Source of the DNA: Candidatus Desulfatibia profunda
Lineage (GTDB): Bacteria; Desulfobacterota; Desulfobacteria; Desulfobacterales; UBA11574
Assembly: GCA_014382665.1 (NCBI GenBank)
Contig: JACNJH010000126.1
Span: 1-52,903, forward strand
Reading direction: 5' to 3'
Length of the DNA stretch: 52,903 nt
This document shows positions 4,087-27,970 of this stretch, one piece after another (the first letter of the stretch is position 1; every line of letters starts with the position of its first letter). A program made the translations under genes and the position numbers. The notes beneath the pieces are model-generated. The model was not told the origin of the DNA and did not search any database. It worked only from the letters and a program-made list of their open reading frames with translations.

Positions 4087-4115
4087 TCTTCTGCCAACTT
4101 ATAATTAAGTAAAGA

Positions 4116-4122
4116 GTCTAAC
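4116..4122 (-). other. Integron cassette boundary (GTTAGAC)
   Basis: Minus strand GTTAGAC, the GTTRRRY crossover consensus, 30 bp upstream of the PIN gene start and exactly complementary to the R'' box of its attC at 2915-2921. Upstream of it (4123-4249) is AT-rich DNA without a gene; it could be an attI or the 3' end of a lost attC, but I cannot tell. Confidence 0.55.
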
Positions 4123-4249
4123 ATTTATATTATACGGCTGAAGATTTTTTCCAGATTATCATAATTTGAGACAATTTTGCATAAAGTATTAAAAAATGAT
4201 AAGAAAGTCAATATCTTTAGTAATATTAACTTGATATATTGACATAGGT

Positions 4250-4315
4250 CATCCCATCATCTTGAGTTCCTTTTTTTACACGACCTTTTTGCCCCGTTTT
4301 ACCGATTGGCTGGCC
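4250..4315 (+). repeat. Direct repeat, left copy (flanks typA)
   Basis: About 65 bp beginning CATCCCATCATCTTGAGTTC and ending CCGATTGGCTGGCC. It recurs with a few differences at 6568-6631 in the same orientation, so the two copies bracket typA. Origin unknown; possibly the trace of an insertion element or a recombination duplication. Confidence 0.75.
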
Positions 4316-4645
4316 GCGGTCCCTTCTCATGGAGGCTCTTGGGCGGATCATCGCTACGATCAAAGGCACCCCATCAAAGTAAAAACGCCGGACCCGGATG
4401 ACCCGAGTTTTTTTCATCTTGCCTGGGCGTCGTTAGCCGTTTCATCCAACACGGTAAACAGGCCCATCCATTTCACGACCCCTTGTAATCGGAGCGAAAA
4501 GCCTTATCTTCAGGACAAAAGGAATCAGACGAATCAACCCGAATATTTCATGATTATTTTTCAGAATCATAAAAATATAACTAAATAACAAGTTAGTAAA
4601 TTCAGAGGCGTGAAATATCCGGATTAACCTATCGTCATCATTTTA

Positions 4646-4667
4646 CCCTAATTGAACTCAATTAGGG
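4646..4667. promoter_or_regulatory. Perfect palindrome in the typA promoter region
   Basis: CCCTAATTGA-AC-TCAATTAGGG, ten-base perfect arms with a 2-nt centre, followed 3 nt later by a TATAAT box (4671-4676). It lies ~60 bp before the typA start. It could be an operator overlapping the -35 region, or a hairpin in a leader if transcription starts further upstream. Confidence 0.5.
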
Positions 4668-4728
4668 TTTTATAATGGTCTCTCAACAGGATGCAAAATT
4701 TGCCTGTTCACGGCCAAGGAAATAACAT

Positions 4729-6564: not shown

Positions 6565-6567
6565 GGG

Positions 6568-6631
6568 CATCCCATCATCTTAAGTTCTTTTTTACACGAC
6601 CTTTTTGTCCCGTTTTACCGATTGGCTGGCC
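6568..6631 (+). repeat. Direct repeat, right copy (flanks typA)
   Basis: Begins 4 bp after the typA stop codon and matches 4250-4315 over its whole length apart from a few substitutions and one or two deleted T residues. Confidence 0.75.
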
Positions 6632-6656
6632 AAGGTTTGGTAGTTATTTGCGCCAA

Positions 6657-6697
6657 AACACGAACCCCCGGCCTGTTAAAGGCCGGGGGTTCGTGTT
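6657..6697. terminator. Strong hairpin between convergent typA and metF
   Basis: 17-bp perfect stem (AACACGAACCCCCGGCC and its complement) with a 7-nt loop TGTTAAA, centred between the convergent ends of typA (+) and metF (-). There is no long U tract on either strand, only TTTT on the minus side, so termination may lean on the very stable stem. Confidence 0.7.
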
Positions 6698-6818
6698 CGT
6701 AAAATCAGGGCATTGCTATTTTAAATAGGAATTTTAGCCTTTCGCCAAAATGATCCCGTAGTTTTGACTGCGGGCGTTTCACTAATCCGCCGCAGGCGGA
6801 TAAAATCGTGATGCGATT

Positions 6819-7763
6819 TTATTTCATCACGGGGCGCGGCAAAACCTTGGCGCGCTCGGCGATCTCGGGAACCATGTGTTCCCACTCGATGGCCATCATG
6901 TGCACCCCGTGGACGCCCTTCATTTCCTTGAATTCCTCGATCTGCTCACAGGCGATCTTGATGCCCTCATTGGCCACGTTTTTCTTGTCAACCCCCTTCA
7001 GACGGTCGATAAGTTCTTCCGGAACCTCGATCCCCGGCACCTTCTTCTGCATGTACCGGGCCATGCCTATGTTCTTCATGGGGGTCACGCCGGCTAAAAT
7101 AAAAACCTTCTCGGTCAAACCCATGTCATTGGCCTGCTGGATAAACTTCCTAAATTTGTCCATGTTGTAGATACACTGGGTCTGGATAAAATCGACGCCG
7201 GCCTCGATCTTTTTGGCCAGTCGATGTACCCGCCAGTCAAACGGGTCCGCAAACGGATTGACGGCCGCACCGATAAAGATTTTAGGCGGATGATGAACGT
7301 CCGCACCGCCCTGGAACTTGCCTTCATCCCGCATGGTCTTGACCATGTTGATCAGCTGTATGGAATCGATATCGAAAACGCCCATGGCGTCCGGATGGTC
7401 GCCAAACATACAGTGGTCTCCTGAAAGACACAGCATGTTCCTCACACCGTGACAATAGACCCCCAAAATATCGGCCTGCATGGCCAGACGGTTGCGGTCC
7501 CGGCACACCATCTGAAAATTGGGCTCCAGACCCTCCTGGATCAATATCAGACAGGCAGCCCAGCTTGCCAAACGGACAACGGCGGTCTGGTTATCGGTGA
7601 TATTGACCGCGTCCACATTCCCCTTCAAGAATTTGGTCTTTTCACGCACCTCTTCGCCGTCGGTGCCCCGCGGGGGCCCCAGCTCACCGGTAAAGGCAAA
7701 ATGACCTGCCCGCAAAACCTTCTCCAAATTGCTTCCTGACTTCATATCATTATCTGTAGTCAT
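6819..7763 (-). CDS. metF: Methylene-tetrahydrofolate reductase catalytic subunit (cluster A)
   Basis: 314 aa from the ATG at 7763, chosen because AGGATGGGA lies at good spacing; an in-frame ATG 12 nt upstream (7775) has poor spacing. It has the MetF TIM-barrel signature: FTGELGPPRGTD (~21-32), NITDNQTAVVRL (~55-66), QMVCRDRNR (~85-93), LCLSGDHCMFGDH (~111-123), FIGAAVNPFADP (~163-174) and FIQTQCIYNMDKF. MetF reduces methylene-THF to methyl-THF (or the reverse) with bound FAD. It is the last gene of a seven-gene operon with metV, hdrBC, mvhD and hdrA, as in the MetFV-Hdr-MvhD complex of Moorella. A close paralog lies at 32349-33281. Confidence 0.9.
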   Translation of the reverse strand: MTTDNDMKSGSNLEKVLRAGHFAFTGELGPPRGTDGEEVREKTKFLKGNVDAVNITDNQTAVVRLASWAACLILIQEGLEPNFQMVCRDRNRLAMQADILGVYCHGVRNMLCLSGDHCMFGDHPDAMGVFDIDSIQLINMVKTMRDEGKFQGGADVHHPPKIFIGAAVNPFADPFDWRVHRLAKKIEAGVDFIQTQCIYNMDKFRKFIQQANDMGLTEKVFILAGVTPMKNIGMARYMQKKVPGIEVPEELIDRLKGVDKKNVANEGIKIACEQIEEFKEMKGVHGVHMMAIEWEHMVPEIAERAKVLPRPVMK

Positions 7764-7885
7764 GACAAATCCCATCCTATCGTTCGATAAATCGGTTATT
7801 CGTTAAATGGTTTAGTGGTAAATTATAAAACATGATCATACAAGTTAAACGATTTGACCACTCAACCACTCAACTGCATTCACCC

Positions 7886-8560
7886 TTACTCGGCCTTTTC
7901 CGGCTTCTTGTAGCCCGGCTGCAGCAAAGACCGCGGCTTCTGGTTCTTCCACGGCACTATCGGCTTGTATTCTTTGATCAAATCCAAACGGTCCTGCAGG
8001 ACCAGACGCTCGAAAATCATGAACCAGGCGCAGGGCTGCTCCTGGCTGATCTCACATTTGCCTTTGTCGGTCCCGCCGCAGGGCCCGTTATAAAGTCCCT
8101 TGGCACACATCGTCACCGGACAGATGCCGCCGGTCCAGCCCAGCACGCAACTGCTGCACGAACGGCAACGCTCCTCGTACCAGCCCACATCCTGGTTGAC
8201 GCCGATAAAGGTCGTGTCCACCGCCGGCAACACCACCTTGGCCGGGTAGCGCTCCGCCAAAAACTGAATCCCGGCGCCGCAGGCCATCGACAAAAGGGCG
8301 TCATACTCCCCCACCATGTCATCCAGCACTTCCATATACTCGCGGTCGCACTGTCGCTCCACCGTGTATGCTCCCAACTCGATGGGATCATTCTCCAGCT
8401 TGCGGGCCATGTCCAGCTCGGCGTTCAATACCGCGACCTCCTTCTCACCGCCGGTCAGACAAACCGCCACGCAGGTCCCGCAACCCACGTTCAACACCTT
8501 CTTGTAACCCTTGAGCATCGCTTTGATTTCCTCAAAGGGCTTTCGCTCGGCAACTATCAT
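7886..8560 (-). CDS. metV: MetV, zinc/iron-binding partner of MetF (cluster A)
   Basis: 224 aa from ATG 8560, fixed by AGGAGGG upstream; the longer frame to 8710 has no ribosome site and no match in the paralog at 33278. Motifs: VLNVGCGTCVAVCLTGGEKEV (~20-40), MACGAGIQFL (~89-98), then a cysteine-rich C-terminal domain CRSCSSCVLGWTGGICPVTMCAKGL followed by NGPCGG. These are marks of the methylene-THF reductase C-terminal (MetV) family. MetV binds MetF and links it to electron carriers. It lies between hdrBC and metF. Confidence 0.88.
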   Translation of the reverse strand: MIVAERKPFEEIKAMLKGYKKVLNVGCGTCVAVCLTGGEKEVAVLNAELDMARKLENDPIELGAYTVERQCDREYMEVLDDMVGEYDALLSMACGAGIQFLAERYPAKVVLPAVDTTFIGVNQDVGWYEERCRSCSSCVLGWTGGICPVTMCAKGLYNGPCGGTDKGKCEISQEQPCAWFMIFERLVLQDRLDLIKEYKPIVPWKNQKPRSLLQPGYKKPEKAE

Positions 8561-8647
8561 ATTCCCTCCTGTTGCGCCAAACTGCTGCTTAACAAAATCA
8601 GTTCCACACCCCAAACCGGATGAACCGGAAACAACCTGGGTTGAGCC

Positions 8648-8683
8648 GGTCGGCCCGTTAGCCCGTAACGGCGGTAGCCGACC
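8648..8683. other. Two-tier hairpin between hdrBC and metV
   Basis: GGTCGGC (8648-8654) pairs with GCCGACC (8677-8683) and inside it CCGTTA (8655-8660) pairs exactly with TAACGG (8666-8671). It sits in the 233-bp hdrBC-metV gap, which also holds several CCGG-rich repeats. It may be an RNA processing or attenuation structure. Confidence 0.5.
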
Positions 8684-8793
8684 CAAACCGGCTAACCGGC
8701 AAACGGACAAACTTTAGCCATTTGAAGTGTGGCCCTTCGGCTAAAAAGACTTTTTGCCACAAAATCGCAAAATTTACAATTAAGATCCTAAGG

Positions 8794-10113
8794 CTACATC
8801 GCCGTCTCAGCATGAAAGACCAGAACGTCTTTAAGATCATCCCCCAGGTATTCACGCTCGTTAGGCCCGAGAATTCCCAGGGAAAGGCATATTAAAGTCC
8901 ACAGGTGAACCGTCTGCCAGGCGTGATTGTTTATGTCGCTAAGATCATGAATCTGGGCATGGCAGTTGTGGCACGGAGCAATACAATAATCGGCCTTTGT
9001 TTCCAGGATCTGGTTTGCTTTTAGTTTGCCGTACTCCCGGCGCTGTTCGACATATCCTGACTGGAGAAAACCGCCGCCGCCGCCGCAGCAGTAATTGTTC
9101 GACCGGTTGGGGTACATCTCGACAAAATTTTCTTCACCCACGACCGACTTGACTATAAACCTCAGATCTTCTGCAATCGGATCTCCAAAACTTTTGCGCA
9201 CGATCTGGCACGGATCCTGAACCGTAAACTTTATCTTCAAATCTTTGTTCCAGTCGGAATTGACCTTCAGTTTTCCTTCCCGAATCCATTTTGCATAATA
9301 TTCGTAGATGTTCTTCACCTCAAACTTATGCTCAATGTTGAATTTTTTCAGTCCGGCCCGGACTGAGAAAGTTACGTGCCCTCACTCGGTATGGAGATAG
9401 GTTTTACATCCAAGGTCGTCGGCCTGTTTGGCCGTGGTTCGGGTAATATGTTCCCAGGCGTCGTTGTCGGCCAGGAACATGCAGTAATTTTCTCCGCCCC
9501 AACCTTTGCTCCCGTAAGTCCAGTCCGCCCCGGCCAGGTACAGAATCTTCCACAGCGGCACCATCTCATCCGGCTCGGTCACCGGTTCGCGGGAATTCTG
9601 GTTTAAAAAGAATTCAGCCCCCTGTTTGTCGATGGGTGCCTCCATCTCCGCAAACTCCGGCTGCGCTTCCCGGTATTCCTCGAGCACGTCCTCGACAACA
9701 AATACAAAATCTTCTTCAGATGTCCCCATGGCGCTGCAACTGTCATTTCTCAAGGCCATGTCACATGATCCGAGGATACCCTTGGGCCGCTCTGCCCGGG
9801 GCCAGCTTGCCCGGGCATTATAGACCAGCTGGGGAATGTCGATCTTCATGGGACAGACATAAATGCAGCGCTGACACATGGTGCACATCCACACCCAGGG
9901 CGTACTGGTGATCTCTTCGTCCATACCCAGGGCTGCCATCCGCAGAAACTTTCTGGGATCCATATTTTCCAGACCCGTGGCAGGACAACCCGATGAGCAC
10001 GCTCCGCAGGTTAAACAAAGGTTCAGATTCCCGCCATCCGGAAGGAGTTCCTTTACCTTGTCCAGAAAAATGCTTTTCTTTTTGCCTCCAAGTTTGATTG
10101 CTTCTTCAGCCAT
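8794..10113 (-). CDS. HdrBC/HdrD-like iron-sulfur selenoprotein (cluster A)
   Basis: 439 aa when the in-frame TGA at 9384-9382 is read as selenocysteine (Sec244). The two halves are in the same frame (588 nt from TGA to the stop). N-terminal HdrC-like part: CLTCGACSSGCP (~34-45) and CTMCQRCIYVCP (~79-90), two 4Fe-4S clusters. C-terminal CCG (HdrB-type) part: EUGHVTF, where the DsrK/HmeD family has ECGH; then QDPCQIV, NYCCGGGGGF and APCHNCHAQ. It would pass electrons between HdrA and a thiol/disulfide or MetFV partner. The ATG at 10113 has a good site (GAGGATATATT). A paralog of identical length is at 30431-31750 with Sec in the same place. Without Sec insertion the product would be cut after the HdrC half. 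Confidence 0.9.
9348..9384 (-). promoter_or_regulatory. SECIS element of hdrBC (cluster A)
   Basis: UGA, 15 nt, then TCAGTCC-GGGCC-GGACTGA: a 7-bp perfect stem with a GGG-bearing 5-nt loop starting 22 nt after the UGA, as in bacterial SECIS hairpins. Confidence 0.8.
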
Positions 10114-14516: not shown

Positions 14517-17500
14517 TTACATTGCCGCACAAACAGATGCCACGATCTGCTGATGTCGGAAATGAAGCATATCAATTGCCTGCTGCGGGCAGGAGGCCGC
14601 GCAAATGCCGCATCCTTTACACGAAGCGGAGATGTTTTTGGCCCGATATCCTTTTCCTTCGGGATCCTCAAGTACGATAGCGTTAAAAGCGCAAACCTCG
14701 GCACAAAGACCACACCCGATGCATTGCTCAACATTTATCTGGGAAACAAGCGGAGAAATCTGGATGGAATCCTTTGCAAGTACCGTAGTGGCGCGGCTTG
14801 CCGCCGCCATGGCCTGGGCGATACTCTCATCAATCCCCTTAGGATAATGGGCCATCCCACACAAAAAGATTCCATCGTTTGCAAATTCCACCGGCCGCAA
14901 CTTGGCATGGGCTTCCATAAAAAATTTCTCGGCGTTTATCGGGATTTTATAAGACTTTGAGATCTTATCGTTTTGGGCCGGTTCGATCGCCGTTGCCAGA
15001 TTCACAAGGTCGGCACTTATCTTAAGATTCTTTTGCAGAATCGGATCAAACACACCCACCTCAAGGCCGTCGTCCGATTCAGTAACAATCGGCTTGTTAT
15101 CGAGGGAATAACGGATAAAGATCACGCCTTTTTCCCGGGCTTTCTTGTACAACGTCTCTCGTTCTCCGAAGGTTCTCATGTCCCGGTATAAAATAAAAAC
15201 ATCCGTGTCCGGGTTCTTTTCCTTGATGGCAAGCGCCTGGGATACGGATGTCGTGCAGCAGATCCTGGAGCAGTACGGACGATTTTCATCCCTTGACCCG
15301 ACACACTGGATAAATACAACACTTTCGGCGGCGTCTAATTTCTCCGGATTTTGTTCAAGCTCATGCCATTTGGTCACATTGGGATGTTTACCATAAAGAT
15401 ATTCATCGGTATCGACGGCCTTGCCGCCGGTTGCGACAATCGTAACACCGTGTTCAACCGTTTGGGTCGTATCTTTTGAAGCAACTTCTGTTTCAAAGTT
15501 ACCCACAAATCCGGAAGCACCAACGACTTCGGCATTCAGCAACACCTTTATATCCGCATGCTGCTCAACTTTCCCCACCAGCTCGTAAAGGTATGCCTGA
15601 ATGTCCTGGCCCTTCCAAGTCTTGGAAAGTTCCCTGGCCGCCCCGCCGAGAACCGATGATTTTTCAACCAGCGTTGCCGGAAAGCCCTGATCGGCCAGGC
15701 TGAGTGCCGCGGTCATGCCGGCAACACCACCACCGATAACCAAAGCGGATTGCTTAACATCCACCGACATAGCGGGAATCGTTTCCAGCAAAGAAGCCCT
15801 GGCAACAGCCATTTTTACAAGATCTTTGGATTTTTCCGTGGCGCTTTTTTTGTCTGCTGAGTGAACCCAGGTGCACTGGTTCCTTATGTTGGCCATGTCA
15901 AACAGATAGGCATTAAGCCCGGAATTGCGCAGGGTCTCCTGAAACAACGGCTCATGGGTTCTGGGTGTACACGCCGCCACAACAATGCGGTTTAAGTTTT
16001 GTTCCTGGATCACTTCTACCATTTTATCCTGGGTGTCCTGGCTGCAGGTAAACAGGTTTTCCTCCACATAAACCACATTGGGCAGGCTCTTTGCATATTC
16101 AGCGATTGCAGGCACATCGGCAATGCCGCCGATATTGATGCCGCAATTACATACAAAGACCCCGATGCGCGGCGCTTCGCCGGTCACATCCTTTTCCTTG
16201 GGAAATTCTTTTTCTTTTACCAAAGAACCCCGTGAAGGGGCCAAATTAATACCGGCGCAGCAGGCTGCGGCGCTGGCTTCCATGACAGACTCGGGGATGT
16301 CCTTGGGCCCCTGAAAAGCACCGCAGACAAATATGCCGTCTTTTGATGTTGCATAGGGCTGAAAACTCGTGGTTTCGCAGAACTTTCCTTCGGTCAGTTC
16401 AATCCCGAGATTGTTGGCAAAATCGACCATTGCCGGCGCTGTCTCCATCCCCACCGACAGCACAATCATATCAAAAATTTCGGTTTCTATCTCTCCGCTT
16501 TCGGTCACATACCGGACCATAAGGTCATCGGTTCCGGGAACCGGGTTTACGGTATGAACCCGGCTCCTGATAAAGCGCACACCATGCTTGTCCCGGGCAC
16601 CGTTGTAATACTTTTCAAAATCTTTGCCCGGAGTCCGCATATCCATGAAAAAGATGGCGCAATCCAGATCATCATCTGCATGCTCTTTGGCGATCACAGC
16701 CTCCTTGACGGCGTACATGCAGCAGACCGAAGAGCAGTAAGAATTGTCGCAGCGGTTCAAATCCCTGGACCCGATGCATTGAAACCATGCAATCTTCTTC
16801 GGCTCTTTATGATCTGACATCCGGACCAGATGCCCATCGGTGGGGCCGGTTGCCGAGAGAATCCGCTCGAACTCAATGGAAGTGACCACATTGGGCTGAT
16901 GGGCATAACTATAATTTTCGAATTTTAAGGGGTTAAACGGCTGAAAACCCGGAGCCAGGATAACAGAACCGACATTGATCGTTGTTGTCTCTGCCTGGCG
17001 GGCGTGCGTCTCAAGGGTTACGGCTTTGGCCTTGCAGGCTGTCACACACTGGTAGCATTCACAGCATCCCCCGCAGTCCAGGCACCGTTGGGCCTCGTGT
17101 TTGGCTGAATCTTCATCCATGCAAAGGTTGACTTCTTCAAATCCTGAAAGCCTTTTTTCCAGCGGCAAGGTCGGAATTTCCATCCGTTCTCTGGTCGGCT
17201 CGTCCTTGGGAAGCTCTGCCCAGTCGGTTCCCATGGGCGGCTCTTCTTGCCATTCTGTGGGCAGTTCTTTTCCCTGCAAATATTCGGCCATGTATTTGGC
17301 GGCCCGCTGCCCGGCCTCAACCGCCTCAATAACCGTAGCAGGGCCGCTGATCACATCCCCGCCTGCAAAGATATAGGGCACATTGGTTTGGAGTGTTTCA
17401 GGATTGACCTCCATAAGGTTCCACCTGGACACCTTGAGGTCCTGTTCTTGAACAAGGTTTCCGAAATCCGGCTCCTGCCCGATGGCCGGGATGATATGAT

Positions 17501-18947
17501 TGGCCTCGATGAAAAATTCCGAACCTTCAATGGGAATCGGCCTTCGCCTGCCGGTTGTGTCTTTTTCCGTCAAACGGGTCCGGATGCATTCAATGCCGGT
17601 GACTTGATCATTTTCAGTGGAAATAGATTTGGGGGCCACCAGAAAATGGATCTTTACCCCTTCTTTTTCGGCTTCCTCGACTTCTTCGGGTTCAGCGAGC
17701 ATTTCCGCACGCGACCGGCGATAGATGATATGCACCTCATTCGCACCGAGTCTCAGGGCCACCCGCGCGGCATCCAGTGCTGAATGACCGCCTCCGATAA
17801 CCACAACCTTTCCGTCTACCTTTTTTAAGTTCCCCAGATGAACCTCTCGTAAAAAGGAGGTGACATCAGAAACGCCCTGGGCGGTTTCCTCTCCGGGAAT
17901 TCTGAGTTTGAGACCTTTCCAGGCGCCAATGGCCAGAAAGATTGCGCCAGCGCCGTGTTCGCGGAGTTCTTCGATGGTCAGATCTCTACCGATAACCGTA
18001 TTGGTATGAATCTCAATCCCGTATCGTTTGAGATTGTCGATCTCTGCGTCCAGTAACTTTCGCGGCAAACGGTGGGCTGGAATGCCGTATCGCATCATTC
18101 CGCCGGCTTCGGGCATGGATTCGTAAACACTTACCCGATACCCGTCCAGCGCCAGAAAATATGCAGCCGTAAGCCCGGCAGGACCTGAGCCGATAATGGC
18201 CACCTTTTCATCCCCGAGCGCAATTTCCGGTACCGGGATATCCTTCAAATCCACCTGATCCGCGGCGAATCTTTTGAGTTCCCGTATAGAAATTGCCGCG
18301 TCCAATTCAAGGCGGCGGCAGCTTTTTTCACAACGATGCGGACAGATACGGCCGAGTATACCGGGGAAGGGTAGATCCTGCATGATGATTTCTACGGCTT
18401 CCCGGTACTTTCCCATCTTGACCATGGCCACATATCCCTGAACGTTTAAATTTGCCGGGCAGGCCATCCTACAGGGAGCCGTATCGAACTTCTCTATGGC
18501 AAAGCTGCCGGGGATTGCTTGAGCGTAAAGCATGTAAGTGGCTTTACGATTCGCCAGCGCCATATCATACTCGTCGGGTCTTGTTACAGGACAGACTTCA
18601 ACGCAATCACCGCAGGCGGTACATATATCGGAATCAATATAGCGGGGGGTTTTGAGGAGAGTTACCTGAAAGTTTCCATTCTCTCCGTTAATGCTTTCAA
18701 TATTTGAACAGGTGTGAAGCTCAATGTTGATATGCCGGCCGACCTCGACCAGTTTGGGAGAGATAATTCACATGGAACAGTCATTGGTAGGAAAAGTCTT
18801 ATCCAACTGTGCCATTACACCACCAATGCCCGGCGACTTTTCAACCAGATGAACATAATAGCCGGAATCAGCCAAATCAAGGGCGGCTTGCATGCCTGCA
18901 ATCCCGCCACCCATAACGAGTACCGCTCCGTTTACATTTTTAGGCAT
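14517..18947 (-). CDS. hdrA: HdrA-GltD-HdrA fusion selenoprotein (cluster A, upstream copy)
   Basis: 1476 aa with TGA 18770-18768 read as Sec60 (NDCSMU). Start ATG 18947 ([11 protein letters not shown]). Order: HdrA N-terminal FAD motif GGGIAGMQ, one ferredoxin cluster [12 protein letters not shown], then a GltD/NfnB-like insertion with TAPCRMACP and ICPHRC (iron-sulfur), [17 protein letters not shown] (FAD, ~253) and [21 protein letters not shown] (NAD(P), ~385); then HdrA continues with [14 protein letters not shown] and [13 protein letters not shown]; then a second HdrA module ([30 protein letters not shown]) and C-terminal [11 protein letters not shown] and [11 protein letters not shown]. 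The insertion suggests electron exchange with NAD(P)H. First gene of cluster A, after a terminator. Confidence 0.92.
18735..18770 (-). promoter_or_regulatory. SECIS element of hdrA (cluster A, upstream copy)
   Basis: UGA, 15 nt, then CUGGUC-GAGGUC-GGCCGG, the same stem and loop as at 13363-13398. Confidence 0.7.
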
Positions 18948-19239: not shown

Positions 19240-20169
19240 TCAGGTTTTAAGAAAGGTTTTTACAAACTTGGCCCAGTTTTGCCCTTCAAGTTCTTGGGAA
19301 ATGTCATCAACTGAACCGCCGCCGTCTGCGGCCAGCCTTAAATCCTCATGGGCCATGGCAAAGAGCTTTTCCTTTTCTTCATTAATAAAATTGCGGGCTT
19401 CTTGGCCGTAATAGAGTCCCTTTAAGTTTTTGCGCAGCTTGGTCGGCTCAATGGTAAATAACCATCCACTTTCATAGGGAGATTCGTTGGCCAGTTCGGG
19501 CTGATCCCGAAGTTTATCGTTCACGTGTGCCACAATGCCGTCCATTGGGGAAAGGATCTTTGCAATTTCTCCATTGCGTCTGATCTGGAATCCCACCTCA
19601 CCCTGCTTTACTTCCTGGCCGATATTCGGTAATTCAACCCTTCCGAGTTTGCCGATCAGTTTTTGGGCAAAATCATCCAGCCCCACTCGGACGCGTCCGC
19701 CGTATTCCGGTTTCGCCCAGGTGTGACCCTCATGGTAATAGAAGTCTTCGGCCAGTTCAAAACCGCTTTCCTGACTTCGGGCATGCACGGGAAGAGGCTC
19801 TGCCTGAAGGCGCTCCTGCATCATCTGGTCAAAAGAGCAGGTACCGCACTCATAAGCACTGGGGCATATCTTGCGGCCCACTTCCCCGGTGATCATATAA
19901 CGACATTTGCGCCGATTTGCAGGAAGCTGCATCATCTTTTCCACCCACGTTTCGGTAAACTTATCCGCCGTTGCCGCAACCGGTTTCAATACCGTGTCTT
20001 CCTTATGCCGGGTAACCTTATCCTGCATGGCATGATCATATGAGCAGGTGGAGCAATCAAAGTTGTGATCGCACAATTTGTAGGAAACAACCCCGGCCTC
20101 CATCCATACACATTTCTTTTTCCCCGGCGGAACAATTTTCATGAATTCTCTTTTTTCGCTGGCTTTCAT
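19240..20169 (-). CDS. GcvH-like protein with two N-terminal Cys modules and no lipoyl lysine
   Basis: 309 aa; start set by AAAGGAGG. Two copies of C-x12-C-x5-C-x2-C at residues 20/33/39/42 and 89/102/108/111, each followed by a (Y/F)DxxMQ block, likely metal-binding. Residues ~140-240 match glycine cleavage H protein (biotinyl/lipoyl fold): HEGHTWAKPEYGGRVRVGLDDFAQ, PNIGQEVKQGE, SPMDGIVAHVN. At the place of the lipoylated lysine (ESVKxxSD in GcvH) the sequence reads QIRRNGEIAKI, so the lysine appears to be missing. No other glycine cleavage gene is near. It is a monocistron with a sigma-54 promoter (20244-20259). A shortened paralog is at 25432-25977. Role unknown; an electron-transfer or regulatory partner of the Hdr complexes is possible. 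Confidence 0.8.
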   Translation of the reverse strand: MKASEKREFMKIVPPGKKKCVWMEAGVVSYKLCDHNFDCSTCSYDHAMQDKVTRHKEDTVLKPVAATADKFTETWVEKMMQLPANRRKCRYMITGEVGRKICPSAYECGTCSFDQMMQERLQAEPLPVHARSQESGFELAEDFYYHEGHTWAKPEYGGRVRVGLDDFAQKLIGKLGRVELPNIGQEVKQGEVGFQIRRNGEIAKILSPMDGIVAHVNDKLRDQPELANESPYESGWLFTIEPTKLRKNLKGLYYGQEARNFINEEKEKLFAMAHEDLRLAADGGGSVDDISQELEGQNWAKFVKTFLKT

Positions 20170-20243: not shown

Positions 20244-20259
20244 TGCAAGGGCTGTGCCA
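20244..20259 (-). promoter_or_regulatory. Sigma-54 promoter of the GcvH-like gene
   Basis: Minus strand TGGCACAGCCCTTGCA, an exact match to TGGCACRNNNNTTGCW with correct -24 GG / -12 GC spacing. Transcription would start near 20233, 64 nt before the ATG. Confidence 0.88.
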
Positions 20260-20360: not shown

Positions 20361-20377
20361 TGCTGAAATATTCGGCA
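20361..20377. promoter_or_regulatory. Candidate upstream activator site 1
   Basis: TGCTGAAATATTCGGCA, an inverted repeat with 7-bp arms and one mismatch, ~105 bp upstream of the sigma-54 promoter. It matches the site at 20460-20476 at 13 of 17 positions. Confidence 0.55.
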
Positions 20378-20459
20378 GTGCGCATTTAGATAAAAACCAA
20401 AACGCCGACAACCTATTGTTTATTCATAGATTTTTTATTTGTCGAAAAATAAGACAGGG

Positions 20460-20476
20460 TGCCGAAAATTTAGGCA
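20460..20476. promoter_or_regulatory. Candidate upstream activator site 2
   Basis: TGCCGAAAATTTAGGCA, related to 20361-20377, ~200 bp upstream of the sigma-54 promoter. Two similar palindromes at these distances are typical of NtrC-family enhancers; the sigma-54 regulator gene next door (21045-22397) is the likely binder. Confidence 0.5.
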
Positions 20477-20492: not shown

Positions 20493-21038
20493 TCAAAGGA
20501 ATTTCTCAAGATACCATTTAAAAAGTTCAAAACAGGTGGGACAAAAGTCGGGTTGCTTATAATCCGTATCATCGATCCGGATTGAGGAAAACATTACACA
20601 TCGCCGATCTCGGCAGTGGGTGATGCCGAATGTGTGTCCCAACTCATGGAGAACGGTCTTTTCCATTCTAGCCAACAGAAGGCCCGGGTTTGACGGCTGG
20701 TTATAGAAGCGGGGGCAAAGTCGGTGTACGGAAATAACAGCGCACCGGCCTTCAATCTGTGCCAGCCCAAAAACAAACTTCAAGATGGGCACATACAGGT
20801 CCACAGGCGTAACACCGATAAACCTCAAAGCGTTATGTGGGCATTGTTGAACAAGATGCTTTAATATCAGCTTTGAATTATATTGGCACCGGGTATCATT
20901 ATAGGCATACCTGGGGTTTTCCATTCCGGAAAAGATTCTGCATTCGAGACCGCATCGGCTCGAGATACATTCCGCAATGTGTCCGAGAATTCCTTCCTCC
21001 ACCCGGCCGACGGCGCAAATTGCAACGCATCTTGACAA
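20493..21038 (-). CDS. amzA: Archaemetzincin family zinc metalloprotease
   Basis: 181 aa. The archaemetzincin signature is complete: HELGHTFGITHC (zinc ligands, ~131-142) followed by RDRRCVMFSSI (C-x4-C-x-M) and a later PDFCPTCFELF (CxxC), giving the extra four-cysteine zinc site of this family. No signal peptide, so probably cytoplasmic. It starts 6 bp after the stop of the sigma-54 regulator gene and is likely co-transcribed with the kinase/regulator pair. Substrate unknown. An archaemetzincin inside a two-component operon is an unusual neighbourhood. Confidence 0.88.
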   Translation of the reverse strand: MSRCVAICAVGRVEEGILGHIAECISSRCGLECRIFSGMENPRYAYNDTRCQYNSKLILKHLVQQCPHNALRFIGVTPVDLYVPILKFVFGLAQIEGRCAVISVHRLCPRFYNQPSNPGLLLARMEKTVLHELGHTFGITHCRDRRCVMFSSIRIDDTDYKQPDFCPTCFELFKWYLEKFL

Positions 21039-21044
21039 TGTAAT

Positions 21045-22397
21045 TTATGATTCCTTTTCAATCTTGTATTTTTCGATCTTATTGTAGAGCGTCTGCCGGT
21101 CAATTTCCAATAAACGCGCTGTTTCGCTGATGTTCCAACCCGTTTCTTCCAGAATTTTTTTGATATGCACTTTCTCCATCAACTTTAATGATTTCGGTAA
21201 TGCGGCCGTTCCCGTTTCTTCGCGTGAAAAGGGAAGATCGTCCGGCACAATTTCCCGGCCGCGTCCGATTACCAACGCCCTTTCGATGACATTCTCCAAT
21301 TCCCGCACATTTCCGGGCCAGTTGTAATCGGTTAACAATTTCAAGGCAGAAGGCGAAATTCTCACCAGCTCTTTATTCATTTCCATACAGTACCTGCGGA
21401 TGAATGCCTTTACCAGCAGCGGGATATCCTCTTTTCGTTCCCTCAACGGTGGAACATGGATAGAGATGACGTTCAAACGATAGAAAAGATCTTCACGAAA
21501 TTTATTTTCGGAAATCGTCTCTTTCAGATTTCGATTGGTGGCCGCCAGGATACGTACGTCCACGCTTATCTCTTCCTGGCCCCCGAGGCGTCTGAACTCT
21601 TGTCGCTGCAAAACCCTTAAAAGATCCACTTGAGTCTTTAAACTGATATCACCGATTTCATCTAAAAATAGTGTTCCTTGATCGGCCAACTCAAAGCGCC
21701 CCTTTTTGGTATTCTCCGCACCGGTAAATGCACCCTTTTCATATCCGAACAGTTCACTTTCCAACAGAGAATCGGGCAATGCCCCGCAACTTACCGCAAT
21801 AAAAGGCTTGTAACAGCGCTGACTGTTTCCGTGAATCGCCCGGGCGATCAGTTCTTTACCGGTACCGCTTTCACCCGTGATGAGTACGGTGGAATCGGTT
21901 GGCGCCACCCGGGAAATCATATCGTAAATCTTTTGCATGGGATCGCTTTTGCCAATGATCTCATCATATTCTGATCTTTCTTCCAGTTTTTGGCGCAGTA
22001 AAATGTTTTCCAGGACCAGTTCTCGATGCGTAACGATTTTTCTGATCTGCATTTCAATTTCTTCCGGATCAAAAGGCTTGACCAGATAATCGAACGCACC
22101 TTCCTTCATGGCCTGAACCGCCGTATCTACCGAGGCATAAGCGGTCATCATGAGTATCTCAGCATCTGTATCCACTTCTTTTCCTTTCAGCCGCCTCAGG
22201 GTCTCAACTCCGTCCATACCCGGCATTTTCAGATCCAGCAAAATCACATCCCAGCTTTTTTCCACGGCCATCGCAATGGCATCTTTGCCGCTTTCTGCCA
22301 GACCGACCTCATAACCATCCTCCATTAGCCAGTCTTTAAGCGCTTCTCGCATCGCAGCTTCATCGTCAACGACAAGAATACGGGCCCTTTTGGTCAT
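21045..22397 (-). CDS. NtrC-family sigma-54 response regulator
   Basis: 450 aa. Receiver domain (~1-120): ILVVDDEAAMRE with acidic pocket, VILLDLKMPGMDG (phosphorylated Asp ~55), and K in YLVKPFDPEE. AAA+ domain (~140-375): Walker A GESGTGKELIARAIH, sigma-54 contact loop ELFGYEKGAFTGAE, Walker B GTLFLDEIGDIS, and sensor/arginine finger region. Fis-type HTH at the end (WNISETARLLEIDRQTLYNKIEKY). It lies downstream of its probable kinase (22659-24731, 261 bp gap) and upstream of amzA. The sigma-54 promoters at 20244 and possibly 26031 are candidate targets. Confidence 0.95.
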   Translation of the reverse strand: MTKRARILVVDDEAAMREALKDWLMEDGYEVGLAESGKDAIAMAVEKSWDVILLDLKMPGMDGVETLRRLKGKEVDTDAEILMMTAYASVDTAVQAMKEGAFDYLVKPFDPEEIEMQIRKIVTHRELVLENILLRQKLEERSEYDEIIGKSDPMQKIYDMISRVAPTDSTVLITGESGTGKELIARAIHGNSQRCYKPFIAVSCGALPDSLLESELFGYEKGAFTGAENTKKGRFELADQGTLFLDEIGDISLKTQVDLLRVLQRQEFRRLGGQEEISVDVRILAATNRNLKETISENKFREDLFYRLNVISIHVPPLRERKEDIPLLVKAFIRRYCMEMNKELVRISPSALKLLTDYNWPGNVRELENVIERALVIGRGREIVPDDLPFSREETGTAALPKSLKLMEKVHIKKILEETGWNISETARLLEIDRQTLYNKIEKYKIEKES

Positions 22398-22658: not shown

Positions 22659-24731
22659 TTACAATACGGCGAACGGCAGACTAACCTTGAAAGTGCTCCC
22701 CTTTCCGGGCTCGCTTTTCACTTCTATGATACCTTTGTGCCGGGTGACGATGCCGTAAACTACGGATAGGCCGAGGCCGACCCCTTTTCCCTCTTCTTTG
22801 GTGGTAAAAAAAGGATCAAAAATTTTTTCCTTATCTTTTTCCGTAATGCCGCAGCCCGTATCGGAAATCATGACATCTAAAAACCTCTCAGTCCCGGCTC
22901 TCCGACGAACGATCACCTTCAGAGTGCCGCCGCCTTGCATGGCGTCTGAGGCATTGTTTATAAGGTTCAAAAGGGCCTGCTGGATCTGTTTAAAATCGCA
23001 TTGAACGTGGGGCAGATTCGGCTCAATGATTTTTTCAAGTTGAATTCCTTTGATTTCAAGATCATGGGCAATCAGAAGCAGGGTCCTGTCAATAATACCC
23101 GTAATGCTGTGGCTCGCAATGCTGATTTTAGATTGACGGGAAAATGCCAGAAGATTTTTTACGATTTCCCCGCACTTGGATGTCTCGGAGTCCATAGTGG
23201 CCAAATATCGGGAAATATCCTCAAGTCTTTCCGAGGAAAAGCTATTTCGCTCGATAAGTTTTATCATCAGACGGATATAGGTCAGAACCGCGGCAAGGGG
23301 ATTGTTGATCTCATGGGCGATAGTCGCAGCTAATTTGCCCAGAGAGGCCAGTTTTTCTGTCTGAACGATCTGTTCCTGAGCCTCCTTGAGTTCCTGATAG
23401 GCCCTTTTGATATTTTCATACAGATTTGCATTATCGACCGCAACACCGATCTGGTTTCCAATGGCACTCAAGAATTCAATATGTTCGGATGAAAACGTAA
23501 TCGGGGTATGTCTGGACACACACATGACCCCGATCGGTTTCCCCTTGGTAACCAGCGGTACATAGGTGGTTGAATGCAGGCCTTCTGCGATAATCGAATC
23601 GACATAGGGGTCTTTGACTCGCTGAAGGTTGTCCAAAATCCGTGTTTTACCGTCCAGTATGGTCTGACCTAAAAACCCTTCTCCCGGTTTACGATATTTC
23701 ATAAAGGGTTTGGTCGTTACTTTATTTGAAAGCCCTCTGTGCGCCACCAGTTTGAGAATATTTTGTTTGTCGTCCAATAGATACATCCTGACACTGTTAT
23801 TGCCAAGAACCTCGAGGATTTTATCGATCGTGCCGCTTAATACCTCGTCGAGATTCAGACTGCTGCTGACGGTTTTGGAGATGGCATTTAAGGCGTCCAG
23901 CCGGATATTGTGACGATTGATCGCCTCTTGCGAGAGCTTCCTCCTGGTAATGTCCCTTATGATCAACACATAACCGACAATCTGTCCGGTTACATCGAGC
24001 GTCACGTTTGATGTGATCAACGCATAAAACCGCCGGTCATTCTTTCCCATAAGGCGGGTTTCAAATTCTACGACAAAGCCCTCCCGGGAAATCTTTTTAT
24101 GAAATTCAAAATATTCTTTGTTTTCAAAGATCTCGGCAACGGATCCACGTGCCAAAACCTCTTCCTGTGTTTTATACTCCAGGATATCAACCCCGGCCTG
24201 GTTGATCTCCGTAATCCTTCCGTCGACGTCGGTTAGAATGATGGCATCACGAGACCGCTCAAATATGGTTCGATATTTTTCTTCGGATTTTTGCAGATCT
24301 TCCAGGCGATAGGCCAACATCTTTTCCAGATTGCCTTCCACTTTTTCGAGATCAGCCTGAAGATGCAGCCTTCCCGTGATGTCGGTGGCGGTTTCCAGAA
24401 CATAAACGATCTCGCCCTGTTCGTCCTTGACCGGCATCGATTTAACAAGCATTTGCGCAACTCTGCCGTCCTTCATGATAACATTTTCTATATTCCAGTG
24501 TCCCCAGCCGTCCTTAAAGGTTTGTTCCACCAGACACTTTTCACATTTTTCATTTCTGTTTTTCCATAACTTGTAACAAAAATTATTCGGTTGCATGCCG
24601 AATTCTTTTTTGAAAAGTTCGTTGGCCATAATGACATGATAGTTCCGGTTGATAGCGATTACATAATCGGTTAAGCTTCTAAGAAGCACTTGATAAAATT
24701 TATGTTCCTGAAAATAGTCTTCGGTTTTCAT
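22659..24731 (-). CDS. PAS-PAS-GAF sensor histidine kinase
   Basis: 690 aa, no membrane segment seen, so a soluble sensor. Residues ~10-125: PAS-like domain with a CEKC pair (63-66). ~150-265: second PAS domain (FERSRDAIILTDVDGRITEIN). ~285-440: GAF domain. ~455-530: HisKA with LGKLAATIAHEINNPLAAV, phospho-His at ~473. ~575-688: HATPase with NLINNASDAM (N box), DTGCGITEKDKEKIFDPFFTTKEEGKGVGLGLSVVYG spread over G1/F/G2 boxes. The CxxC in the first PAS could hold a redox or metal sensor; the kinase at 26483 has a similar SSPCENC. It likely phosphorylates the regulator at 21045-22397. Confidence 0.95.
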   Translation of the reverse strand: MKTEDYFQEHKFYQVLLRSLTDYVIAINRNYHVIMANELFKKEFGMQPNNFCYKLWKNRNEKCEKCLVEQTFKDGWGHWNIENVIMKDGRVAQMLVKSMPVKDEQGEIVYVLETATDITGRLHLQADLEKVEGNLEKMLAYRLEDLQKSEEKYRTIFERSRDAIILTDVDGRITEINQAGVDILEYKTQEEVLARGSVAEIFENKEYFEFHKKISREGFVVEFETRLMGKNDRRFYALITSNVTLDVTGQIVGYVLIIRDITRRKLSQEAINRHNIRLDALNAISKTVSSSLNLDEVLSGTIDKILEVLGNNSVRMYLLDDKQNILKLVAHRGLSNKVTTKPFMKYRKPGEGFLGQTILDGKTRILDNLQRVKDPYVDSIIAEGLHSTTYVPLVTKGKPIGVMCVSRHTPITFSSEHIEFLSAIGNQIGVAVDNANLYENIKRAYQELKEAQEQIVQTEKLASLGKLAATIAHEINNPLAAVLTYIRLMIKLIERNSFSSERLEDISRYLATMDSETSKCGEIVKNLLAFSRQSKISIASHSITGIIDRTLLLIAHDLEIKGIQLEKIIEPNLPHVQCDFKQIQQALLNLINNASDAMQGGGTLKVIVRRRAGTERFLDVMISDTGCGITEKDKEKIFDPFFTTKEEGKGVGLGLSVVYGIVTRHKGIIEVKSEPGKGSTFKVSLPFAVL

Positions 24732-25122: not shown

Positions 25123-25580
25123 ATGAAAAAAAACGACACTTCCCCTTCCCAAAAAGCGCTTGTTGCCGACTGGCAAACGCTGACAAGAACATTCATCAGG
25201 CCTGAAAATGACGCTGCCAGGTCCACTTTGATTAAATACATGGAACAAATCCTTTTCGGTCTGCATGATTTTCTTAAAACACATGTCGGCTTCACCAAAG
25301 AGGTCAGCCTCAGAGACCTCTCTGAGAGATTTACCGACACGCTGATCAGTTAGAAAAAATCCTGAAAAAAACTGGCGGATGTTATCACCGATCTGATCGA
25401 AGAAATTGCACCCCATGCCGTCAATGTAGCTTCACCATATTTTGTAGGCCACATGACCTCGGCCATACCTTTCTTTATGGTCCATCTTAAAACAATCGTA
25501 GCCGCCTTGAACCAAAACGTCGTCAAAATCGAAACTTCCAAGGTCGTTTCGGTTGTAGAGCGACAGGTCCTGGCCAAAAT
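25123..25580 (+). pseudogene. 5' fragment of a PanP-like decarboxylase gene
   Basis: Codons match the start of the intact gene at 42058-43707 (KALVADWQ.LTRTFIRPENDAAR; then IAPHAVNVASPYFVGHMTSAIP). The frame is broken by TAG (25351-25353) and TGA shortly after, in a short A-rich stretch with one codon more than the intact gene. Homology runs to about 25580 (LAKI), equivalent to 42511, and stops exactly where the antisense GcvH-like sequence begins. Only ~28% of the gene remains, without the PLP lysine. A duplicate that was truncated by rearrangement. Confidence 0.85.
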
Positions 25581-25977
25581 CGCAGTTGGAACAGTTATAG
25601 TCGTAAGCACACACCCTTTTGCCGATTCGCTGGGTCAGGGTATGCCGGCACACTCTGTCCATGGCAGGTCTGCGCCTCACGACATCCTGCCAACTGATCC
25701 GCTTGCCTTTTTGCACCTGCTTTTGCATGCCAAGATCGTATTTGCAGGAGGTGCATTCATAGTAATTGTTACAGGTTTTAAAATCGACCACGCCGGCCTG
25801 CATCCAGATGCAGGGGTTTGCCATTTGGGCGTCCTTGTCCGGTTTCACCATCCAGACCTGCCCCCCCAATACGGCATCAATTTCACCTTCTCTACCGAGA
25901 TCCTCTTTGCCGCCCTTGCGGTAAGATGATCCGAAACCCAGACGACTTCTTCTGTCTTTTCTGATTTCTTCCGCCAT
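25432..25977 (-). CDS. Truncated paralog of the GcvH-like protein (Cys modules only)
   Basis: 181 aa. Two C-x12-C-x5-C-x2-C modules matching those of the protein at 19240-20169 (PCIWMQAGVVDFKTC..; RVCRHTLTQRIGKRVC..CSNCDF). The homology ends right after the last Cys module at about 25580. The final ~45 codons are the antisense strand of the decarboxylase fragment, so the whole GcvH-like domain is lost. N-terminal ~50 residues are longer and basic. It keeps a sigma-54 promoter (26031-26046) and a GGAGAAAAAA ribosome site, so a short Cys-rich protein could still be made. Either a decayed gene or a free-standing metal-binding protein. Confidence 0.65.
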   Translation of the reverse strand: MAEEIRKDRRSRLGFGSSYRKGGKEDLGREGEIDAVLGGQVWMVKPDKDAQMANPCIWMQAGVVDFKTCNNYYECTSCKYDLGMQKQVQKGKRISWQDVVRRRPAMDRVCRHTLTQRIGKRVCAYDYNCSNCDFGQDLSLYNRNDLGSFDFDDVLVQGGYDCFKMDHKERYGRGHVAYKIW

Positions 25978-26030: not shown

Positions 26031-26046
26031 AGCAAACAATATGCCA
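26031..26046 (-). promoter_or_regulatory. Sigma-54 promoter of the truncated GcvH-like gene
   Basis: Minus strand TGGCATATTGTTTGCT: -24 GG (26045-26044) and -12 GC (26033-26032) at exact spacing. Start near 26020, ~43 nt before the ATG. A half site TGCCGAAAA (26372-26380), identical to the left half of the element at 20460, lies ~330 bp upstream. Confidence 0.8.
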
Positions 26047-26482
26047 TTTTTTAATAATTCCATTAAAAACATTATATCTATTTAATATTACTTTATTTTT
26101 AAATATTAGCCCTGTATTTGGGTGTTTTTGATTCCTTATATGCATGTGTGGTTAAATCCTACATCCGGCTTGGTTCAAAGATAGTTGTGTTGTAATAATA
26201 TTTATTTTTTTATATTAAATCTAATGAGTTGGTTGTTTGTTGGATTTTCCTACATGGCGTTTATTTTTCCTACAATGCCTGTGCCCCCCTTTATAAATTA
26301 TCCCTTCCAGAGGCTATATCAAAGTCCAGCCTATGGGCCAGGTTTTTGCCGTGTTGCAATGAATGTGAGTCTGCCGAAAATGATAAGATTTGAAATAGTT
26401 AATTTAAAAATAGCCAGTTGACTTCCCCTAACGGTTATGGTTGACTGTTTGTTAATTTATTGCGTCAAAACAGGGGAGCGGC
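26047..26482. other. Divergent intergenic region
   Basis: 436 bp, AT-rich, between the truncated GcvH-like gene (-) and the kinase gene (+). Apart from the sigma-54 promoter at its left edge and the half site at 26372 I see no gene and no clear promoter for the plus-strand genes. Confidence 0.35.
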
Positions 26483-27970
26483 ATGCGCACGGTCAAAGAA
26501 AAAGAATTGTTGATCAAAGCGGTGGATTCGTTCATCCGGAAGTTTATTGTTGTATCTCCTGAATTCAAGATCCTGGCCGCCAGCTGTCAGCAAAATGAAA
26601 TACCACCGTCTGAAATCGTAGGAAAATACTGTTACGAAGTCCTGGCTAACCGATCCTCTCCGTGTGAAAATTGTGCCGTAATAGAGACGTTAGAGAACGG
26701 CAAGCACTCCTTAAAGCTGAAGATCGTTGATGATTTAGACCTGAACGTGATGCCGTGCTACTATTCATATCCCATCTATTCCGGGAAAGATGTCGAAGCC
26801 TATGTCAGTATGGATTTTGATATCCCCACCAGAGGAGGTCTCGAACAAAAGCTGGAGCGGTCCAAAGCCTTTTTGCATAATCTGATTCTCAGTACGGTAG
26901 ACGGGGTTATTGCGGCGGATAAAAGCGGTAAAATCCTTCTTTACAATGCAGCCGCAGCCGATATTTTCGGCTACACCCGGGATGAAGCGCTGACCCGTCT
27001 GAACGTTCGTGATATTTATCCTGACAATAATGCCTATGAAGTTATGCGAATGCTGCGCAGCGAGGAACACGGCGGTAAGGAAAAGCTCAAATCCTACCAG
27101 GTAGATGTCATCAGCAAACACGGTGAAATCATTCCCATCAACCTGAATGCAACCATCATTTATGAGCACGAACGAGAGTTGGCCACCATCGGTTTTTTTC
27201 ATGATCTGCGCGAGGAGCTTCGCATAAAAGAGGAACTGAGTAAGACCCAGATCCAGCTTTTGCAAGCAGAAAAGATGTCTTCCCTCGGCAAACTGGCTGC
27301 CGGCGTGGCGCATCAATTAAATAATCCGCTGGGAGGAATTATCCTGTTTACCAAGCTTATCCTCGAAGAATACGATCTGCCGGACGGCGCCAGACAAGAC
27401 TTAAACAGAGTTGTAAAAGACGCGGAAAGATGCCGGGATACTGTAAAAGAACTGCTTGAATTTACTCGTCAAACTCGCCATTTATTGCAACCTCACGATA
27501 TTAATCAAGCGATTTCCCGGACCCTGTTTCTGCTTAAAAACCAGGCCCTGTTCCAGAATATAAAAATAGAAAATGATCTGGATGCTACGCTCCCATTGGT
27601 TCCATCTGATATCCAGCAACTGAATCATTTGTTTATGAACATCATTCTTAATGCGGCCCAGGCCATGGAAGGCCATGGAAAACTGACGATTAAGAACTAC
27701 CTGTTACCGGAAGGCAATAAGATCGGCATCGAAATCGCAGACACCGGTCCGGGAATACCCGAAGATATCCTGCCCCATATCTTCGAGCCCTTCTACACCA
27801 CCAAGAATGAAGGGGAAGGAACCGGGTTGGGCCTCAGTCTGGTATACAGTATCGTCGAAAATCATGGTGGTCATATCAAGGTCACAAGTAAGCCCGGAGA
27901 GGGAACCACTTTCATCATTGAGATGCCCCTTGAACACAAGAGAAATGGAGGAGATAACATTGAAAAATAG
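26483..27970 (+). CDS. PAS sensor histidine kinase
   Basis: 495 aa; start after GGGGAGCGGC. N-terminal ~115 residues form a PAS-like domain with SSPCENC (58-64). A canonical PAS domain is at ~128-245 (LSTVDGVIAADKSGKILLYN). HisKA: LGKLAAGVAHQLNNPLGG, phospho-His at 277. HATPase: NIILNAAQAM, DTGPGIPEDILPHIFEPFYTT, GTGLGLSLVY. No transmembrane helix. It overlaps the next gene by 11 bp, so it is translationally coupled to a receiver-containing kinase. The CxxC-type PAS is shared with the kinase at 22659. Confidence 0.94.
   Translation: MRTVKEKELLIKAVDSFIRKFIVVSPEFKILAASCQQNEIPPSEIVGKYCYEVLANRSSPCENCAVIETLENGKHSLKLKIVDDLDLNVMPCYYSYPIYSGKDVEAYVSMDFDIPTRGGLEQKLERSKAFLHNLILSTVDGVIAADKSGKILLYNAAAADIFGYTRDEALTRLNVRDIYPDNNAYEVMRMLRSEEHGGKEKLKSYQVDVISKHGEIIPINLNATIIYEHERELATIGFFHDLREELRIKEELSKTQIQLLQAEKMSSLGKLAAGVAHQLNNPLGGIILFTKLILEEYDLPDGARQDLNRVVKDAERCRDTVKELLEFTRQTRHLLQPHDINQAISRTLFLLKNQALFQNIKIENDLDATLPLVPSDIQQLNHLFMNIILNAAQAMEGHGKLTIKNYLLPEGNKIGIEIADTGPGIPEDILPHIFEPFYTTKNEGEGTGLGLSLVYSIVENHGGHIKVTSKPGEGTTFIIEMPLEHKRNGGDNIEK

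Follow-up and report, generated by a model that had tools for sequence, protein, structure and literature searches.

A GcvH-fold protein that has no lipoyl lysine and carries two four-cysteine (Cys4) modules, hereafter Cys-GcvH, appears to be the sigma-54-controlled output of a cassette that also encodes a histidine kinase, an NtrC-type regulator and an archaemetzincin-type (M54) metallopeptidase. The cassette was analysed in a window of 52,903 nucleotides from Candidatus Desulfatibia profunda (contig JACNJH010000126.1), and sequence comparison strongly supports its architecture. Its domains, the lysine loss, the Cys conservation, the gene cassette, the promoter, the palindromes and the fusions are documented below from the sequences; the biochemical role of Cys-GcvH, its metal and the target of the protease are what we infer.

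A complete GcvH fold without the lipoyl lysine

Cys-GcvH is encoded at 19240..20169 on the minus strand, an open reading frame with exactly these bounds (309 aa), and begins with two Cys modules (residues 20-42 and 89-111), followed by a lipoyl-less GcvH domain (approximately 137-245) and a conserved helical tail at the C-terminus (247-309). The Pfam model GCV_H (PF01597) aligns with residues 144-264 (E=1.1e-25, 90.4 bits against a cut-off of 22.2), the sequence matches solved H-proteins (best 1onl, 6.6e-18), and in the AF2 model, where the GcvH fold is complete, the GcvH part fits the T. thermophilus H-protein 1onl with a TMt of 0.91. Scores against TIGR00527 (GcvH; 83.3 bits) and NF045810 (GcvH_rel_desulf; 45.7 bits) lie under the curated cut-offs of 115.85 and 150, respectively. 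The latter, a GcvH-derived protein of Desulfo-bacteria and thus of similar organisms, is a different family from Cys-GcvH, and databases probably list proteins of the Cys-GcvH type under the wrong name of glycine cleavage H protein.

The first-pass annotation had read the lipoylated lysine as absent (QIRRNGE), and alignment to the true GcvH of the same genome (TVESVKAVC) agrees, placing Gly200 in the lysine column. In the AF2 model Gly200 is the apex of a hairpin, in the turn between strands 192-198 and 201-207, and alignment and model together ruled out a lipoyl lysine shifted out of register. Lysine occupies this column in 6 of 62 aligned rows, all six of them genuine lipoyl proteins; among close homologues it is restricted to true GcvH and Chloroflexi rows, and in distant family members it occurs in 5 of 84 GcvH domains, never in a lipoyl context such as ESVKA. 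The position is mostly Gly, Asp or Glu across the family. The true GcvH lies on a separate contig (C117) with gcvP/T neighbours, and the window holds no other glycine-cleavage gene, as had been noticed at first pass.

Two conserved Cys4 modules

All eight cysteines of the protein (residues 20, 33, 39, 42, 89, 102, 108 and 111) fall in two N-terminal C-x12-C-x5-C-x2-C modules outside the GcvH domain. They are invariant in a 43-sequence alignment of Cys-GcvH, and each is kept in 53-55 of the 54-55 homologue rows covering these positions, a near-invariance which argues that the pattern is not due to chance. The duplicated module described in the first-pass annotation therefore stands, with both copies and all eight cysteines conserved, but its spacing is not fixed, as paralogues may have C-x13-C in the second module.

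Neither the Cys module nor a two-module paralogue matched any family in Pfam or NCBIfam, the sole Pfam zinc-finger score being zf-CHY at 13.3 bits against a cut-off of 31.3, and no PDB relative of the module was found above chance. A known zinc finger or Fe-S family was ruled out on these grounds, including the known zinc ribbon that had been named as a possible refutation. AlphaFold modelling, also proposed at first pass, was informative for the GcvH part but not for the Cys modules, which have pLDDT values below 50 in the full-length model; a single module modelled alone reached a mean pLDDT of 84, and a Foldseek search with that model matched no PDB fold. The Cys4 domain appears new and, judged by the conservation of its cysteines, may bind a metal or Fe-S centre.

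Paralogues and fusions of the family

A 181 aa paralogue encoded at 25432..25977 (minus strand) lacks a GcvH domain but has both modules, confirming that these are shared as first suggested. In the source genome eight regions match, and a full-length GCV_H domain occurs in seven proteins. Three of the seven are free-standing Cys-GcvH, and the other four are the true GcvH, a GcvH-like protein without Cys modules, a NuoG-like fusion and an HdrA-like fusion. The NuoG-like fusion has [2Fe-2S] and [4Fe-4S] domains followed by one Cys module and a GcvH domain at its end, and the HdrA-like fusion (1105 aa) has a GcvH domain at its C-terminal end. The [4Fe-4S] dicluster domain of NuoG fusions has the Cys module immediately after it, an arrangement that speaks for a redox role without proving it, and the NuoG fusions of loci L166, L167 and L169 adjoin NuoE, NuoF and a large HdrA. 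In a GcvH-domain tree, built from few columns and too few for deep forks, HdrA fusions are nested among free-standing Cys-GcvH and apart from the NuoG-fusion group. A profile search for the Cys module across 296 genomes of the phylum, carried out as had been recommended, was positive in 63.

Family architectures range from zero to four Cys modules. At locus L165 four Cys modules and a GcvH domain are combined in a 442 aa protein (7705-9033, minus strand), which adjoins a 1134 aa HdrA-like protein with a C-terminal GcvH domain (3705-7109, minus strand). In an 822 aa open reading frame (L164:744-3212, plus strand), which is either real or an assembly artefact, one Cys module and GcvH are fused to an NAD-dependent epimerase-like domain, and a 596 aa homologue (L163) was rejected as a peptidase fusion, its N-terminus being a start-codon artefact. 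GcvH-like proteins without a Cys module adjoin kinase, regulator and M54 genes at L170, L192, L193 and L199; several of them have a hydrophobic, membrane-anchor-like N-terminus, and the genes at L170 and L199 lie beside apparent NrfD-type membrane and TAT-signal redox genes. These proteins are possibly a membrane version of the system.

A conserved cassette with an M54 peptidase

Three genes on the same strand form the cassette with Cys-GcvH. A soluble sensor histidine kinase (22659..24731, minus strand; PAS, PAS, GAF, HisKA, HATPase) is followed by an NtrC-type response regulator (21045..22397, minus strand; receiver, sigma-54 AAA+ with GAFTGA, Fis HTH), the predicted activator of the Cys-GcvH promoter, and by an M54 (archaemetzincin-type) metallopeptidase (20493..21038, minus strand; PF07998, E=1.7e-26) with an intact HELGHTFGITH...C4C...CxxC motif. 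Homologues of Cys-GcvH were taken from Desulfobacterales, Aminicenantes, Neomarinimicrobiota and Calditrichaceae, and most of the 53 homologue loci keep the order kinase, regulator, M54 and, last, Cys-GcvH; this order was seen in Desulfobacterales, Aminicenantes and Neomarinimicrobiota. Where the cassette is incomplete, a contig end has mostly cut the locus short, L012 and L033 being among the exceptions. Cultured sulfate reducers with the cassette include Desulfosudis oleivorans (in a MAG, locus L051) and strain NaphS2. Distant Desulfobacterota have the same gene set, sometimes divergent or convergent, with other neighbours and often without hdr.

The HExxHxxGxxH and Cys4 sites are intact in all 46 cassette M54 peptidases, and GAFTG[AS] is present in 43 of 47 regulator homologues, some of the rest being truncated. 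No transmembrane-like stretch was found in any cassette protein, and from their sequences all appear soluble. M54 was present in 59 of the 63 genomes with a Cys module, compared to 49 of the 233 without (Fisher p = 4e-27, 296 genomes), and within 6 kb of 58 of 83 Cys-module loci. Many M54 genes stand alone in genomes, and M54 in general was rejected as a marker for this reason, the cassette type alone being relevant. A C-x10-12-C-x2-C motif was observed in the N-terminal PAS-like region of the cassette kinase and of a second kinase in the window (26483-27970), and a similar Cys-rich PAS motif occurs in 23 of 36 cassette kinases; it is possibly a metal or redox sensor.

Sigma-54 promoters and upstream palindromes

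With the strict pattern TGGCNYN5TTGCW, only two sigma-54 (-24/-12) boxes were found in the window, each before one of the two Cys-module genes: TGGCACAGCCCTTGCA (20244..20259, minus strand), 75 bp upstream of the Cys-GcvH start, and TGGCATATTGTTTGCT (26031..26046, minus strand), 54 bp upstream of the two-module paralogue. Genome-wide the pattern gave 60 boxes, relative to 5 with a reversed control, indicating that the signal is real, and every one of the genome's four free-standing Cys-module genes, the other two Cys-GcvH included, carries a box. In the homologue loci a box lies upstream of 41 of 52 Cys-GcvH genes and of none of 34 kinases, 45 regulators, 45 M54 peptidases, 36 HdrA or 137 other genes; sigma-54 control of the kinase, regulator or peptidase genes, or of the adjacent HdrA, was rejected as they have no sites. 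Two relatives (L011:9497 and L017:12758) have a separate sigma-54 box 65-83 bp before a metF-hdrA operon, beside another NtrC gene, so Hdr-MetF operons can have sigma-54 control of their own.

Upstream of the Cys-GcvH promoter, regularly spaced palindromes with the consensus TGCCGA-N5-TCGGCA lie at approximately -118, -198 and -218: TGCCGAATATTTCAGCA (20361..20377), about 118 bp upstream of the sigma-54 box, TGTCTTATTTTTCGACA (20440..20456), an enhancer-like site with two mismatches at about -198, and TGCCTAAATTTTCGGCA (20460..20476), at about -217 to -218 (all unstranded). Sites matching at least 10/12 positions occur in 33 of 42 Cys-GcvH upstream regions, where 0.13 would be expected from first-order Markov-randomised sequences, and 40 of the 46 strong palindromes over all loci stand before Cys-GcvH. 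Their proximity and geometry suggest that they are the binding sites of the cassette activator.

The paralogue and the other two genome copies have different half-sites at roughly similar distances. Before the paralogue, enhancer-like palindromes TGTAGGATTTAACCACA (26147..26163; -117 from its sigma-54 box) and TGTAGGAAAATCCAACA (26238..26254; -208), again unstranded, were observed in the region 26031-26254 with a TGTAGGA half-site, unlike that of the main cassette. The copy on contig C116 has the half-site GGCTAC and a regulator HTH reading NRVTLHKM, and in Aminicenantes (L053 and L059) the palindrome is TGTTGA-N5-TCAACA, with the HTH of the L059 regulator reading DRATLYNK instead of DRQTLYNK. 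This small sample suggests that regulator and palindrome diverged together.

Hdr- and Nuo-type neighbours

An adjacent HdrA-like flavoprotein (14517..18563, minus strand; Fer4_20, Pyr_redox_2, HdrA-type, 4Fe-4S) lies outside the cassette proper and is the probable client complex of Cys-GcvH. HdrA- or NuoE/F/G-type genes were found within the flanks read at 31 of 53 homologue loci, and twenty-odd HdrA-type matches were counted in the 3.85 Mb of the source genome. The cassettes of L173, L174, L175 and L182 have no nearby hdr or nuo gene, so the client may differ there or be encoded elsewhere. The association with metF that had been proposed for a co-occurrence check is not general: metF adjoins Cys-GcvH at 3 of 53 loci, and it was rejected as a partner on that count. 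The first-pass view of a new, putatively metal- or redox-active scaffold protein associated with Hdr gene clusters is upheld in part, by the absent lipoyl lysine, the undescribed Cys module, the frequency of Hdr/Nuo neighbours and the fusions, but proximity to Hdr is not the defining context of Cys-GcvH, which is the kinase, sigma-54 activator and M54 cassette with its sigma-54 promoter, also where no hdr is near.

Proposed mechanism and alternatives

In the mechanism that we propose, the soluble PAS/GAF histidine kinase would phosphorylate the NtrC-type regulator, which would bind the TGCCGA-N5-TCGGCA palindromes approximately 110-220 bp upstream of one promoter and drive sigma-54 transcription of Cys-GcvH, the output gene of the cassette. 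The GcvH fold would have been kept as a docking domain while the lipoyl arm was lost, and Cys-GcvH would most likely attach to flavin/iron-sulfur electron-transfer complexes of the HdrA/NuoG type. There its pair of Cys4 modules, with a metal or Fe-S centre, may let it serve as an inducible subunit for electron transfer or regulation. Cys-GcvH or a partner is probably matured or removed by the M54 peptidase. Docking on HdrA/NuoG-type proteins is suggested by the fusions, by the hdr/nuo genes near more than half of the loci and by analogy with LbpA and Hdr (PMC6067878). Our reading of Cys-GcvH, to which we give an even chance, is that of a docking/redox subunit or a regulator serving Hdr/Nuo-type complexes, inducible through sigma-54, with the protease acting in its turnover or maturation. 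The broader proposal of an undescribed, widespread redox-control module, in which an inducible Cys4/GcvH adaptor joins and retunes flavin-based, electron-bifurcating Hdr/Nuo complexes and paralogous copies are insulated by diverged half-sites, is more tentative and in our judgement falls short of probable.

The main rival treats the Cys modules as zinc or thiol switches. In that view Cys-GcvH would be a signalling protein that responds to metal or redox stress by gating the kinase/regulator of its own cassette or M54, in a feedback loop or regulated-proteolysis circuit that has no enzyme client. The near-confinement of the strongest palindromes to the region upstream of Cys-GcvH implies a circuit directed mainly at itself, no other non-regulatory neighbour is as constant as M54, the Cys4 spacing suits zinc, the Cys-rich PAS motif recurs in the kinases, and CarG is an archaemetzincin homologue acting in transcription control (PMC3427221). 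However, the NuoG-like and HdrA-like fusions point to enzyme complexes, and the M54 catalytic motif is intact throughout, unlike that of CarG; we regard this explanation as unlikely, though a serious competitor. Considerably less probable is a carrier of acyl or one-carbon groups in which a cysteine or another residue takes the place of the lipoyl lysine. The full GcvH fold would suit such a role and the Hdr-associated LbpA does carry lipoate (PMC6067878), but the homologue alignments have no replacement lysine or cysteine in register with the Gly/Asp/Glu position, every cysteine belongs to the N-terminal Cys4 modules, and no lipoate-ligase or glycine-cleavage gene was recognised among the annotated window proteins. 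A degenerate GcvH paralogue that has lost its key catalytic lysine, has no specific function and owes its neighbours to chance is scarcely credible, being contradicted by cysteines that are near-invariant across phyla and by the conserved promoter, palindromes and gene order.

Comparison with known systems

The docking/redox reading can be set beside systems that share parts of it. Cys-GcvH shares the GcvH fold (TIGR00527, PF01597) over the whole length of GcvH, and differs in having no lipoyl lysine, in its two Cys modules and C-terminal tail, and in lying outside a gcv cluster. LbpA of the sHdr sulfur-oxidation system is an Hdr-associated GcvH homologue that carries lipoate on a strictly conserved lysine (PMC6067878), and is likewise a GcvH-fold protein tied to HdrA-type flavoproteins; whereas LbpA of sulfur oxidizers has kept the lysine, Cys-GcvH has not, and its partners are a sigma-54 cassette and an M54 peptidase. 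The kinase, AAA+ activator, -24/-12 promoter and palindromes are all shared with NtrC-type two-component systems that have a dedicated output gene, but the output here is Cys-GcvH and the cassette includes an archaemetzincin. The cassette peptidase resembles archaemetzincins in its M54 sequence, with HExxHxxGxxH and a Cys4 zinc site. CarG of Myxococcus xanthus is an inactive archaemetzincin homologue in a transcription complex and has lost the catalytic Glu (PMC3427221), which is kept in all of the cassette peptidases examined; it was the only precedent linking M54 to regulation in the open-licence literature searched. Those open-licence texts held no published description of the cassette, of the Cys module or of a sigma-54-controlled GcvH-like protein in these organisms. 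The parts of the cassette are of known kinds, and their combination appears new.

Anaerobes living on small energy margins have many Hdr/Nuo-type complexes, whose adjustment is poorly understood. Cys-GcvH defines an undescribed Cys4 domain and shows the GcvH fold reused without its cofactor, and the cassette offers a setting in which the little-understood biological role of bacterial archaemetzincins can be tested. If the proposed mechanism is true, this dedicated sensor-to-adaptor cassette, which occurs in several phyla and in up to several copies per genome, would amount to a general layer of control.
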